DNA of 64,000 bases, taken from the NCBI RefSeq assembly GCF_017094465.1, contig NZ_CP064791.1:930001-994000 (forward strand), in the 5' to 3' direction. The translations under genes were made by a program, and so were the position numbers. Origin of the DNA: Halapricum desulfuricans. GTDB lineage: Archaea > Halobacteriota > Halobacteria > Halobacteriales > Haloarculaceae. Shown here one piece after another: positions 56,277 to 62,808 of the stretch; position 1 is the stretch's first letter, and each line of letters opens with the position of its first letter. The notes under the pieces are model-generated. The model ran no database searches, was not told the DNA's origin, and saw only the letters and a list, made by a program, of their open reading frames with translations.

Positions 56277-56696
56277 TCAGAACAGTCCGATGCCGACGGC
56301 GTACGGCCACTCGACGCTACCGAGCGCCAGAAACGCCAGCGCACCGCCAAGCAGCGTGGCGTTTTTCAGGAAACTCGTCATCTCGCTCTGTCGCTGCTCC
56401 TCGGGGACGGCCCAGAAGTCGTGCATCGTCGGCGTCGCGACGAGCAGGAACACGGCGATCGCACCCGCTGCGACGACCGGGAACGCGCCGATCGCGATCG
56501 CGACTCCGCCGGCGATCAACTGGACGCCAGTCGCCGGGACCAGAAACTCCGCGGCAGGGATGCCCTTGGCTTTGCTGTAGCCGATCATCCCCTCCGCATC
56601 GAGCAGGTGGTTGAGCCCGGTAAACGCCAGCACGAGCCCGAACAGGGCACGAGCGAGCAGGAACACCTCGCCGGAACCGGCCGATTCGAACGCCAT
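56277..56696 (-). CDS. DoxX-family membrane protein
   Basis: 139 aa with four helices: LARALFGLVLAFTGLNHLL, then EGMIGYSKAKGIPAAEFLVPA, which is DoxX-like. It is divergent from an HxlR regulator across 142 bases that contain the palindrome GTTCG-TATC-CGAAC, so HxlR may control it. Confidence 0.85.
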   Translation of the reverse strand: MAFESAGSGEVFLLARALFGLVLAFTGLNHLLDAEGMIGYSKAKGIPAAEFLVPATGVQLIAGGVAIAIGAFPVVAAGAIAVFLLVATPTMHDFWAVPEEQRQSEMTSFLKNATLLGGALAFLALGSVEWPYAVGIGLF

Positions 56697-56781
56697 CAGG
56701 CGACACCTCCGGAGAGGGACTGTGCTTCGTTCGATACGACTCGCGGCAGATTCGAGATAGCGACTATCACGACAGTACCTA

Positions 56782-56795
56782 GTTCGTATCCGAAC
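56782..56795. promoter_or_regulatory. Inverted repeat between doxX and hxlR genes
   Basis: GTTCG-TATC-CGAAC lies 43 bases before the HxlR gene start and 86 bases before the DoxX start. A related GTTCGATACG stands near 56732. A dimeric HxlR could bind here and control both divergent genes. Confidence 0.5.
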
Positions 56796-56838
56796 CCATT
56801 TATCGCTTCGCGGACATAGATGTCACCGGATAACCCCG

Positions 56839-57171
56839 ATGTCATCGGAACTCACTACCACGGACGAGCAGTCGGGACCGTGTCCGGTCGTCGAAACGAT
56901 CGAGCAGATCGGCTCGGAGTGGCGGCTCGTCGTGTTACACGAGCTACAGAGCGGCGAGCGACGGTTCAACGAACTCAAACGGGCGACCGACGCCAGCGCG
57001 CGGACGCTCTCGCGCGTTCTCGACGACCTCCAGGAGCAGGGGTTCGTCACGCGGCGGCTCGAAGAGGACGCACCGGTCGCGACCTACTACGAGTTGACGG
57101 AGAAGGGCAAGTCACTGTGTCCCGTTTTCGATGCGATCGACTCGTGGGGACAGGAGTGGCTGGAGAGCTGA
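56839..57171 (+). CDS. HxlR-family transcriptional regulator
   Basis: 110 aa winged helix. SGPCPVVETIEQIGSEWRLV, then NELKRATDASARTLSRVLDD and RRLEEDAPVATYYELTEKG are HxlR hallmarks. Cys in GPCPVV and SLCPVF could sense redox or quinones, as in related YodB/HypR. Divergent from the DoxX gene. Confidence 0.92.
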   Translation: MSSELTTTDEQSGPCPVVETIEQIGSEWRLVVLHELQSGERRFNELKRATDASARTLSRVLDDLQEQGFVTRRLEEDAPVATYYELTEKGKSLCPVFDAIDSWGQEWLES

Positions 57172-58570: not shown

Positions 58571-59914
58571 TCACTCTGCACGCGGGAAGTTGTCGATCGT
58601 CTCGCTCTCGAAGCCGTCCGCGTCGAACTCGTAGTCCCGATCGAGGAACTCGACGATCTGGCGCGTGTCCTCCTTGGCGTTCTGGAGGCAGGTCGAGGCG
58701 CCCGGCGAGGGCGTGATGTTGAAGATGATCCCGTGGCCGTGGATCTTGGCCTCGCCCATGTCCAGGGATTTCGTGCTGGTGTCGACGATCTGCGGACGGA
58801 CGCCACCGTAGCCTTTCGCACGCTCGATGTCGTCGGCCTCGACTGTCGGGACGACCTTCTGGACGTGCGGCAAGAATGCTTCCTTGCCGATCTGCGGGAC
58901 GTCGTACAGGAGGTTCTTGAGCACGAACGGGAACAACACCCGATCCGCGAGGATGTTCGTGTAGCTCGCAAACGCCGCCGGACTGAACCCGAACACGTCG
59001 AGGAAGTCCGGAACCGTCGAGAGCCGCCCCCGCTCCAGCGCCGGCACGAACTTCGCGGTCGGGCCGAACCTGGTGATCCCTTCGTCGTGCACGTCGGCGT
59101 CGCCGTGGACCGCCGCGAACGGCAGACGCTTCATCTGGAGAGTGTACACCTTGCCGTTCAGCAGCCCGTCCTCGGAGAGGAAGAAACTCCCCGCCACTGG
59201 GAGCAGCGCCATATCGTCGCCGTAGCCCATCTCCTTGGCGATCTGCAGGCTGTGGGAACCGGCTGCGACGACCGTCGCGTCGGATTCGAACGTTCCGCTG
59301 TCGGTCTCGACGGTGAATCCTTCCATCGTCTCGTCGATGTTGGTGACCTTCGTCCCCGTGTAGACGTCGACGCCGCCTTCTACGCGGGCCTGCTCGACGA
59401 ACGATTTCGATATCTCGCCGTAGTCGACGGTGTAACCGTCTGGCGTGTGCAGTGCGAGCAGATCGGTGTCGGGATCCCGGCCCTCGACGACCTTCGGTTC
59501 GAGTTCAGCGATCCGCTCGCGACCGATCGCCTCCAGTTTCGGATACAGGTCGCCGAACCCTTCCTCCTCGTGTCGGTGCCTGAGCGTCTCGACTTCCTCG
59601 TCGCCGACCGCGAGCACCATCTTCGAGCGCTTGCTGTGCATCTCCCGGTCGGAATCGTGGTTTTCGAGATAGCCCGCGACCATCTCGGCCCCGCGTTTGA
59701 CCGATTCGGCCTTCTCCAGGGTGTAGTTCGTCTCGATGTCCCCAAAGTGCAGCGTCTGGGAGTTGTTCGTGACGTGGGAGTTGATCGCCGCGATCTCGTC
59801 CTCTTTCTCGATCAGCGCGACCCGCTCTACGTCCGTGAACTTCGAAATAGTGTACAGCAGCGACGCGCCGCTGATGCCCCCGCCGACGACGATGATATCG
59901 TATTCTTGGTCCAT
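58571..59914 (-). CDS. mqo: Malate:quinone oxidoreductase-type FAD enzyme
   Basis: 447 aa. N-terminal DIIVVGGGISGASLLYTI binds FAD; INSHVTNNSQTLHFGDIE and the C-terminal IFNITPSPGASTCLQNA fit Mqo, which oxidises malate and passes electrons to menaquinone. The haloarchaeal form is slightly shorter than bacterial Mqo. The start was set at MDQEYDIIV, 59914. Confidence 0.82.
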   Translation of the reverse strand: MDQEYDIIVVGGGISGASLLYTISKFTDVERVALIEKEDEIAAINSHVTNNSQTLHFGDIETNYTLEKAESVKRGAEMVAGYLENHDSDREMHSKRSKMVLAVGDEEVETLRHRHEEEGFGDLYPKLEAIGRERIAELEPKVVEGRDPDTDLLALHTPDGYTVDYGEISKSFVEQARVEGGVDVYTGTKVTNIDETMEGFTVETDSGTFESDATVVAAGSHSLQIAKEMGYGDDMALLPVAGSFFLSEDGLLNGKVYTLQMKRLPFAAVHGDADVHDEGITRFGPTAKFVPALERGRLSTVPDFLDVFGFSPAAFASYTNILADRVLFPFVLKNLLYDVPQIGKEAFLPHVQKVVPTVEADDIERAKGYGGVRPQIVDTSTKSLDMGEAKIHGHGIIFNITPSPGASTCLQNAKEDTRQIVEFLDRDYEFDADGFESETIDNFPRAE

Positions 59915-60027
59915 GGTATCATCCGATGTGACTCGGTAAGCGTTCTTCGTTACTACAGGCGGGCCGAGCACACTAAACCGCTACTATCTATCGGGTACGT
60001 TAGAATTACCGGGGCTAATTCGATCGA

Positions 60028-60393
60028 CTACTGTCGGTCGCGCTGCAGTCGCTGTCGCCGGCGCTCGAACTCCTCGTCGGAGAGTTCCCCACGGGCGTAC
60101 CGTTCGCGGAGTGCGGCGAGCGCACCGTCCGTGCTGGAGGGAGGTTCGGTGTTGGGTGAGTTGTTCGGTCGGGTGTAGCCGCCGACCAGCGCGACGATCG
60201 CCCCAATGACCACGATCCACAGCAGCGGTCCGAGCCCGAACCAGCCGACGCCACCGACGCCACCGCCCATCGCGCCGGCGCCGTGTTGCGCGGCGGCGGG
60301 CATCGTCAGCGCCACGAGTACTGCGAGCGCAGCGACGGCAGTTCCGATCGAGCGACCGGTTCGCGAGCGGAGCGACGCGTCAGTCAATGGCAT
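60028..60393 (-). CDS. SHOCT-domain secreted/membrane protein
   Basis: 121 aa. A membrane or signal helix (about residues 19-38), Gly/Ala/His region (QHGAGAMGGGVGG), a second helix (about 50-73), and a C-terminal SHOCT motif ALAALRERYARGELSDEEFE. SHOCT domains occur at the ends of many membrane proteins as oligomerisation or localisation tags. It overlaps the upstream His-rich gene by 10 bases (coupled translation). Confidence 0.85.
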   Translation of the reverse strand: MPLTDASLRSRTGRSIGTAVAALAVLVALTMPAAAQHGAGAMGGGVGGVGWFGLGPLLWIVVIGAIVALVGGYTRPNNSPNTEPPSSTDGALAALRERYARGELSDEEFERRRQRLQRDRQ

Positions 60394-60941
60394 CCCCCCG
60401 GACCGCCACTGTATCGCCACGCTGAATCACTCGTTCCCTCTGTCCGTGTTCCGTCGGACGGGTACGGACTGCTCTCGTACCCGTCTCCCGGGTAGTAGGT
60501 GCCGTTCACGGCGGAGGGATACGTACTGTTTGCGTAACCCCCGTGATGGTACGCGGTACCGTTTGCGTACCGAGCGGGTGCGGACCCGTTCACGTACGCG
60601 CCACCGTGATAGTGCGACGCGTTCGCGGGCCGTTCGTCGCCTGCTCCGTACGCCCACCCGTGATGTGGGCCGTGGTGGGGTCCGTACTGGCCGCCGTATC
60701 GCGTCTCGTTCGTAGCGGCTGGGCCGTAGGAACCGCCACCGTGCGGGCCGTAATGGCCGCCACCGTGTGGCCCGGCGTACGGACCGACATCGTCCGGGGC
60801 GTCCCCACCCCAGACGTTCGTGTCCATCCAGTCTGTCCAATTATTATCGTTCGTCCCGTGCGCGCTGACGGCCGGGATGAGCAGTGCAACACCGATCAGT
60901 GCGACCACCAGGAGTAGCCAGCGGTCGGTTCGGTCTGTCAT
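60384..60941 (-). CDS. Secreted His/Gly/Tyr-rich protein with seven N-glycosylation sequons
   Basis: 185 aa. A signal helix (RWLLLVVALIGVALLIPAVSA) precedes a low-complexity domain of GPHGGGHYGPHGG-type and HGGY repeats with 13 His and many Tyr. Seven N-X-S/T sequons (NWT, NET, NAS, NGS, NGT, NST, NGT) predict heavy glycosylation. His clusters suggest binding of Cu, Zn or Ni outside the cell. No family was recognised. First gene of the two-gene unit with the SHOCT protein. Confidence 0.8.
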   Translation of the reverse strand: MTDRTDRWLLLVVALIGVALLIPAVSAHGTNDNNWTDWMDTNVWGGDAPDDVGPYAGPHGGGHYGPHGGGSYGPAATNETRYGGQYGPHHGPHHGWAYGAGDERPANASHYHGGAYVNGSAPARYANGTAYHHGGYANSTYPSAVNGTYYPGDGYESSPYPSDGTRTEGTSDSAWRYSGGPGGCH

Positions 60942-61089
60942 CGTGTGATCGCCTCACCCCTTTCTATGGGGGGTACTGGGTTATCCCCGTGGGTCTAAAC
61001 GAACCTCTCAAATCGTCCGAGAACGTTTATGCAACGGTTAGAGAGTTTTTGAGGAACAAGATCGTTCGTGGCGACGGTTGCAGACACTC

Positions 61090-61812
61090 TCAGTTCCCGA
61101 GGCGCTCCTCGAGGTCGTCGTCCGGATAGACCCGGTAGGTTCGGCCCTGTTTCTCCCGGTAGAGCAGGCCACGCTTTTCGAGCTCCGAGACCGTCTGGCT
61201 CACCTTGCTCTTCGAGAAGTCCGAGCGGTCCCGCAGTGCGATCTGTGTGAGCCCCGGCGACTCGACGACCGGTTCGAGGATCCGGCGCTCGTCGTCCGGC
61301 AACAAGTCCAGGACCTGGCGGACCGACTGTCCGTCCCCGTCGGTCGTCGCCGACGCGTCCTCGTCGGGTCCAGCCTCATCCGGCTGATCCACGCTCGTGT
61401 GGTGTGCTGTCTCGCCCGCTTCGCTCTTCGCGTCGGATGCGTCCACCGTCCCTTCAGCCGTGCTCGCGGGAGCGCTCTCGGCCGCCGTCGTTCCGTTGGT
61501 GCCGGCGGTCGGTTGTCCGGCCACGTCCGTCCGCATCCCGTTGGCAGCCGGAGGGGACGTATCTGTCCGTTCGGCGGCCTCACCCCGCATAATCGCGTAG
61601 AAGCCGATCAATAGCGCGACCGCGAGTAGTGTCCCGACAGCATATACAATCGGATCCGTGCCGCCCATCGTGGACGACCCGTCCATCATCGAGCCCATCA
61701 TCTCGTGACTTGTTTGCCGTTGCTGGATCGCCTGCCAGGTGAGTACACCGCCGCCGAGCAGCAGTGTCGCGACTGCGGCCGCGACGACTCTGTCCGACGT
61801 CTGTCGGTCCAT
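61090..61812 (-). CDS. Membrane-anchored winged-helix regulator with Met-rich loop
   Basis: 240 aa. Two membrane helices (about 8-27 and 54-75) flank an external loop with SHEMMGSMMDGSSTMGG, a Met/His-rich motif typical of copper or silver binding proteins. A Thr/Ala/Asp/Glu linker (76-160) leads to a cytoplasmic MarR-like winged helix (165-235; TQIALRDRSDFSKSKVSQTV). Topology predicts the sensor outside and the DNA-binding domain inside. It is 148 bases upstream of the His-rich/SHOCT genes, facing them. Confidence 0.85.
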   Translation of the reverse strand: MDRQTSDRVVAAAVATLLLGGGVLTWQAIQQRQTSHEMMGSMMDGSSTMGGTDPIVYAVGTLLAVALLIGFYAIMRGEAAERTDTSPPAANGMRTDVAGQPTAGTNGTTAAESAPASTAEGTVDASDAKSEAGETAHHTSVDQPDEAGPDEDASATTDGDGQSVRQVLDLLPDDERRILEPVVESPGLTQIALRDRSDFSKSKVSQTVSELEKRGLLYREKQGRTYRVYPDDDLEERLGN

Positions 61813-61920: not shown

Positions 61921-62808
61921 TTACTCCGCGTCGCCGGTCTCGATCGGAGCGCGGATCGTGTTGCCCCATTCCGTCCAGGAGCCGTCGTAGTTCTCGACGT
62001 CTTCGAAGCCGAGCAGTTCGTGGAGCACGTACCACTCGATTGAGGACCGTTCGCCGACTCGGCAGTAGGTGATGACCGACTGATCCTCCTCGATGCCGAC
62101 CTCCTCGTACAGCGCACGGAGTTCGTCGGCGTCTTTGAACGTGCCGTCGTCGTTCAGGACTGACGTCGTCGGGACGTTCTGTGCGCCGGGAATGTGGCCG
62201 CCACGCTGGGCGGTCTCCTGAAGGCCCTCGGGGGCGATGACCTCACCGGTGAACTCCGCAGGCGAGCGGACGTCGACTAGCGGGACACCGGAATCGATCG
62301 CCTGCTCGACATCTGACTTGTACGCGCGGATGTTCTCGAACGGTCCCCGTGCGGTGTACTCCTGGGGCGTGAACTCCGGGACCTCCGTCGTCAGCGGGTA
62401 GTCGTTTTCGACCCAGTAGGGCTTCCCGCCGTCGACGACCCGCACGTCCTCGTGGCCGAAGTATTTGTACTGCCAGTAGCCGAACAGTGCGAACCAGTTC
62501 GGGACGCGTCCGCCACCGTAGAGGACGACCGTCGAGTCCTCGGTGATCCCCGCGTCCCCGTTCAGCTGTTCGAAGGACTCCTTGTCGAGGATGTCACGAG
62601 AGACCGGGTCGCTGAGGTCTTCTTCCCAGTGGAAGAACGTCGCCCCCGGGATGTGGCCGTCCTCGTAGGGCGTGTACTCCGAGTCCGCAGTGACCGTCGG
62701 GTTGTTGATCTCGACGAGTCGATACTCCGGATCGTCCGCCTGGAACTGTTCGAGGTGATCTTCGACCCAGTCCGCCGTCACGAGCGTGTCCGCACCGTGT
62801 TTTGCCAT
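61921..62808 (-). CDS. Thiosulfate/3-mercaptopyruvate sulfurtransferase (tandem rhodanese)
   Basis: 295 aa with two rhodanese domains (about 10-140 inactive, 165-285 active). The active loop CRVGERSS at Cys249 follows SVITY, as in TST/MST enzymes that pass sulfane sulfur to thiols or cyanide. GHIPGATFFHWEEDL and GGHIPGAQNVPT are the CH2-type motifs. A TTTATGG box lies about 30 bases before the start. It is near sulfur-related genes but not in their operon. Confidence 0.92.
   Translation of the reverse strand: MAKHGADTLVTADWVEDHLEQFQADDPEYRLVEINNPTVTADSEYTPYEDGHIPGATFFHWEEDLSDPVSRDILDKESFEQLNGDAGITEDSTVVLYGGGRVPNWFALFGYWQYKYFGHEDVRVVDGGKPYWVENDYPLTTEVPEFTPQEYTARGPFENIRAYKSDVEQAIDSGVPLVDVRSPAEFTGEVIAPEGLQETAQRGGHIPGAQNVPTTSVLNDDGTFKDADELRALYEEVGIEEDQSVITYCRVGERSSIEWYVLHELLGFEDVENYDGSWTEWGNTIRAPIETGDAE

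Follow-up and report, generated by a model that had tools for sequence, protein, structure and literature searches.

Three adjacent genes in a haloarchaeal genome of 2.88 Mb probably form a haloarchaeal envelope metal-response unit, in which a membrane regulator (REG) would, via promoter repeats, control a secreted, metal-binding His-rich protein (HISP) and a SHOCT protein. What the analysis shows is the gene structure, the conservation and co-occurrence of the genes, the metal-gene context in relatives and the repeats in the promoter. We regard the trio as a probable surface metal-buffering system because it is conserved and usually situated beside copper-handling genes, and because its repeat-bearing promoter is highly conserved. 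The features below are numbered by position in the window, i.e. the whole 64-kb stretch of DNA that was analyzed (G000:C1:930001-994000).

60028-60393, minus strand: SHOCT protein, from its match to the SHOCT domain
60384-60941, minus strand: HISP, His-rich and probably secreted, 185 aa, from a signal-like N-terminus and the counts of His and sequons
60942-61089, minus strand: intergenic region upstream of HISP, with conserved promoter and probable operator, from an alignment of relatives
60974-61055, minus strand: promoter block, 82 bp, scoring 51.9 bits with the hold-out matrix
60980-61000, minus strand: conserved element GTTTAGACCCACGGGGATAAC, found with a degenerate pattern
61010-61016, minus strand: repeat ACGATTT, 10 bp from the ACGTTCT repeat (repeat scan)
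61020-61026, minus strand: repeat ACGTTCT, adjoining the TATA-like element (repeat scan)
61059-61065, minus strand: repeat ACGATCT, the outermost (repeat scan)
61090-61812, minus strand: REG, membrane regulator of 240 aa, with DUF7343 and MarR_2 matches and two hydrophobic helices
Parts of REG, minus strand, from the sequence and a predicted model: putative Met-rich outer loop (residues ~29-53), acidic linker, winged helix (~161-230)

Gene order and co-occurrence

REG, HISP and SHOCT follow one another in this order, each encoded on the minus strand, and the SHOCT start codon (ATG) falls within the 3' end of HISP, giving a 10-base overlap. An earlier, sequence-only reading of this DNA had an operon facing the regulator; this was wrong, as the three genes share one direction. 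Its counts were accurate, namely 13 His and seven N-x-S/T sequons in HISP, an MM..MM..M loop and a winged helix in REG, and the SHOCT domain. The trio is flanked in the window by an FAD oxidoreductase (DAO/Mqo-like, 58571-59971) and a tandem rhodanese (61921-62808), whose positions are kept in the loci L004 and L046. Also kept in these two loci is a pair at 56277-57171, with a DoxX protein (minus strand) divergent from an HxlR-type regulator (plus strand).

Among 142 genomes of the family, REG was found in 52 (E<=1e-15) and HISP in 55 (E<=1e-3), or 48 after seven weak matches were set aside. Both genes occurred in 47 genomes, REG only in five, HISP only in one and neither in 89 (Fisher p 1.2e-30, a value that is indicative only due to shared ancestry). 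HISP was no more than 5 kb away from REG in 40 out of 46 loci of the family sample, and SHOCT in 35. A set of 24 control stretches, of which the window supplied four and the same genomes 20, served for comparison, and HISP was present at 35 of 40 REG loci vs. none of the controls, and SHOCT at 38 vs. one, with some of the 40 loci being near-identical plasmid copies. The co-occurrence check proposed in the sequence-only reading has hereby been run, and the genes are far from rarely together. A chance neighborhood of the trio is excluded by the co-occurrence in the 142 genomes and by the 24 control stretches.

A scan of GTDB contigs yielded 26 REG loci in many haloarchaeal genera. Three more genomes of the genus share the order rhodanese-REG-HISP-SHOCT. 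The closest named relative found was Halapricum hydrolyticum, whose regulator is 72% identical. Other arrangements include a REG divergent from HISP-SHOCT in G003 (L047), while the trio is also present in G004 (L048).

The regulator and the conserved promoter block

The C-terminal winged helix of REG was matched by Pfam DUF7343 (35.5 bits) and MarR_2 (34.1 bits, with a cut-off of 27), both above cut-off. Regulators of the MarR family are soluble, with helical dimer ends around the winged helix. REG, whose relatives are annotated as MarR in RefSeq, has the MarR winged helix but shares nothing else of this architecture, the rest of the protein being two membrane helices and a linker. As in transmembrane regulators, a DNA-binding domain is found together with at least one transmembrane region, the latter predicted from the hydrophobic helices in both sequence and model. 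Two long helices (residues 3-37 and 54-81) bracket the loop in the predicted model, which also contains the winged helix (161-230) and is of low confidence (mean pLDDT 55). The loop between the two hydrophobic helices, QTSHEMMGSMMDGSSTMGG, would be external to the membrane if the winged helix is in the cytoplasm and the protein crosses the membrane twice. Its counterparts, 44 distinct loops, hold 2-6 Met (mean 4.4) in ~30 residues, and the HTH is almost invariant among relatives.

The region 5' of HISP (60942-61089), which the sequence-only reading had named as a possible binding site of the winged helix, is conserved over 45 distinct loci. The promoter block in it has the consensus AaACGnTTAgAncgcnnTATAnACGtTCTCGaACGnTCTC, then gTTCACACCCA-N5-ATAACncC, ~31 bases before the ATG, and occurs in ~50 loci, with recovery in both hold-out and untrained loci. 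Using the hold-out matrix, whose training set left out the window-type loci and the nearest ones, no other site above 5 bits was found in the 64-kb window. The block is also absent from the three P-type ATPase loci of the host. The best of the 24 control stretches reached -23 bits with the full matrix, while shuffled sequences, a poorer control than these real stretches, gave nothing above the reporting threshold of -20 bits. In the host genome, the degenerate pattern of the 60980-61000 element is matched exactly twice, each time ahead of a HISP gene. Moreover, a second copy of the block (67 bits) precedes a paralogous HISP-SHOCT pair on the 181-kb contig C2 (61794-62848; L127), which has no REG beside it. 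In L024, an untrained match lies before a HISP of His repeats that had escaped the profile, and another in L050 is likewise meaningful. The L024 gene (5733-6203) encodes a HISP variant of HHESGxRHHGN repeats and was detected only via the promoter block. A partial block (54 bits) is found after REG at L114:7324, with no HISP called behind it; the HISP of that genome is on another contig (L131).

Repeats of the form ACGnTCT are strongly enriched in HISP promoters, with 93 observed vs. 1.8 in shuffles. The spacing of ACGnTYT repeats is 10 or 20 bp, with clusters at positions 50, 69, 89 and 99, i.e. separated by approximately two, two and one turns of the helix; the second repeat of the window is degenerate (ACTCTCT). 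A simple palindrome was rejected as the operator, as the best symmetric center is only 0.52 complementary and direct repeats in steps of 10 bp are a better fit. Nor did the upstream region match any known RNA leader in Rfam at the gathering threshold.

It is rather improbable that a factor other than REG reads these repeats, with REG being only a linked gene with some other target, or a membrane-bound accessory. Such a factor would agree with the second HISP pair of the host, which has the block without REG nearby, and with the lack of any block elsewhere in the REG loci examined. If REG is the reader, it would have to act in trans on the L127 pair, since no REG lies beside that block. Against another factor stand the near one-to-one occurrence of REG and HISP across genomes, the almost invariant HTH with an equally invariant promoter block, and the case of G090, the sole genome of the 142 with HISP but no detected REG. 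This genome (L130:6293-8850) retains a frameshifted REG remnant without the HTH, 1.7 kb from an intact HISP whose promoter has kept the TATA and ATAAC parts, while its two central repeats have become ACCTTTT and ACCGTCT. The change of the repeats alongside the loss of the HTH fits REG as the repeat reader, although it is a single case. In L117 and L118, the REG recognition helix is changed (SKAKISQ) and so are the repeats, a pairing that is only suggestive. The HISP-like proteins of these two loci are divergent, with five Cys and many Met.

Metal-gene context and putative metal-binding residues

In other haloarchaea, REG usually has as neighbors ArsP_1/YHS permease, multicopper oxidase or plastocyanin, HISP, SHOCT, DUF302, HMA proteins and P1B ATPases. 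At least one ATPase, permease, oxidase or HMA protein was found near REG at 29 of 40 loci vs. one of 24 controls, where the oxidase profile may include cupredoxins; plasmid islands and common ancestry confound this association. Plasmid pNG600 of Haloarcula marismortui, for example, carries in order a P-type ATPase, HMA, two other genes, permease, 'MarR', a hypothetical protein (HISP), SHOCT, DUF302, SHOCT, thioredoxin and plastocyanin, with the unit itself at RR_RS01540-01550. The island on Halorientalis pHOS300 resembles it, and REG occurs on a total of 36 plasmid records. The ATPases of these islands include a CPH type with a His-rich N-terminus and an SPC type. A soft-metal link had been guessed from composition in the sequence-only reading, and the metal genes that neighbor REG in other genomes independently support it, but the window trio is adjoined by no metal gene. 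Likely copper genes of the host map away from the trio, with an HMA-domain CPC ATPase and an Lrp-like gene at around C1:2.62 Mb, and an ATPase with a multicopper oxidase at around 1.23 Mb.

HISP has no family match in Pfam or NCBIfam. The mature part of the window protein starts near A-H-G, and a single Cys is situated near its end, GGCH. Among 50 distinct HISP sequences, most have a single terminal Cys adjoining or near His (GHC, GHGC, GGCH) and A-H-G after the signal; in an alignment of 13 rows, neither A-H nor the Cys of the terminal region varies. Beyond the window type, most proteins have 1-4 MxxH motifs, which fall in a hairpin of helices predicted at residues 45-89 (pLDDT ~80 for the block), whereas window-type HISP has no MxxH, one Met after the start, and PHGGG and HHGPHH runs instead. 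An iterated profile linked the window HISP to the Met type of other genera (E 1.6e-16, optimistic as the iteration was over the same loci). Homology from the signal peptide alone is unlikely, because the A-H start, terminal Cys and promoter are also common to them and the promoter matrix recovered further HISP genes. The SHOCT protein of the trio has a C-terminal SHOCT domain (37.8 bits, Pfam cut-off 27), preceded by a signal or transmembrane segment, the putative outer segment QHGAGAMGGG and a transmembrane segment. Its relatives have AAAHG or AAAQHG followed by Gly/Met. By their residues, the His, Met and Cys-containing ends of HISP and SHOCT could bind metal.

Two alternative readings concern the signal itself. 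It is unlikely that oxidant or envelope stress, and not metal, is what the unit answers to, with oxidation of the loop Met, HISP as an envelope-shielding surface glycoprotein, and the nearby metal genes as common plasmid cargo. The sequons of HISP, the rhodanese and FAD oxidoreductase beside the window trio, the thioredoxin in some islands, and the trio occurring alone in several genomes (L079-L082, L110) all favor stress, but the metal-gene association is strong compared with the controls, and HISP and the REG loop use residues of metal type (His, Met, terminal Cys-His). Also doubtful is a change of metal in the window-type lineage, e.g. to Cu(II), Ni or Zn, as Met motifs were swapped for His-Gly repeats. 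The composition of window-type HISP and the missing adjacent metal genes would agree with this, but the REG loop, HTH and promoter are conserved, and the HISP of L047, from the same genus, combines the Met helix and the His tail. For the metal-response unit, Cu or Ag would be the most likely metal.

Proposed mechanism and relation to known systems

From the above we infer metal sensing by the REG loop and the identity of the metal, binding of REG to the repeats, the direction of regulation and buffering by HISP. REG would be situated in the membrane with the Met-rich loop outside and the winged helix inside. A soft metal, Cu or Ag most likely, on the loop would change the occupancy by REG of the ACGnTYT array, which surrounds the TATA-like element of the HISP promoter at one or two helical turns, and HISP and the coupled SHOCT gene would be switched on. 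The overlap of the repeats with the TATA element suggests that REG represses HISP and that metal releases this repression, while REG may instead be an activator. Once secreted, HISP would act as a possibly glycosylated buffer, taking up metal via its A-H-G start, His or Met motifs and C-terminal Cys-His, and SHOCT, having a similar HG-Gly/Met outer segment, would hold or pass metal at the membrane. The unit would in many relatives work together with multicopper oxidase or plastocyanin, P1B ATPases and permease, functions encoded elsewhere in the host of the window.

A broader reading, possible though falling somewhat short of probable, is that of a widespread and undescribed haloarchaeal regulon, in which a membrane-tethered winged helix senses outside metal by a Met loop, directly reads phased ACGnTYT repeats and controls a secreted buffer, whose chemistry has switched between MxxH helices and His-Gly repeats with regulator and operator fixed. 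If confirmed, the unit would offer a compact, testable example in which a single protein detects metal on the outer side of the membrane and contacts DNA on the inner side, and the likely operator can be read off the sequence. Conserved 'hypothetical' and SHOCT genes in the copper islands of haloarchaea would also be explained, and SHOCT proteins would gain a concrete context.

We did not find the REG-HISP-SHOCT unit described in the open-licence literature, nor any papers there on DUF7343, or on SHOCT with MarR, in haloarchaea. SHOCT function is given as unknown, without mention of copper, in the description of the domain (PMC3581485); the trio protein shares the C-terminal domain and differs in its tie to HISP. 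SilE (PMC5008109), whose MxxH and HxxM peptides bind Ag+ (PMC10080550), resembles HISP as a small, secreted, disordered protein, and MxxH or HxxM motifs are found in most HISP relatives; the buffering role of HISP is proposed by this likeness. HISP differs by its signal, its C-terminal Cys-His and the archaeal surface, and the window protein has neither MxxH/HxxM motifs nor sequence homology to SilE in Pfam or NCBIfam.

Transmembrane transcription regulators likewise combine membrane segments and a DNA-binding domain in one protein, with archaeal examples for motility and pilin genes (PMC10269533), and the words copper, metal, MarR and winged helix are absent from the main text of that paper. 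Unlike these, REG combines a Met-rich loop, putatively on the outside, with HISP as a constant partner and with repeats in helical phase. Lastly, the copA-lrp-copZ locus of Haloferax is also part of a haloarchaeal copper/silver response, where silver induced one SHOCT membrane protein (PMC10694973), which is not equated here with the SHOCT family of the trio. That locus relies on a soluble Lrp-type regulator and the cytoplasmic CopZ (PMC10694973), whereas the trio combines a membrane regulator, REG, with a secreted partner.
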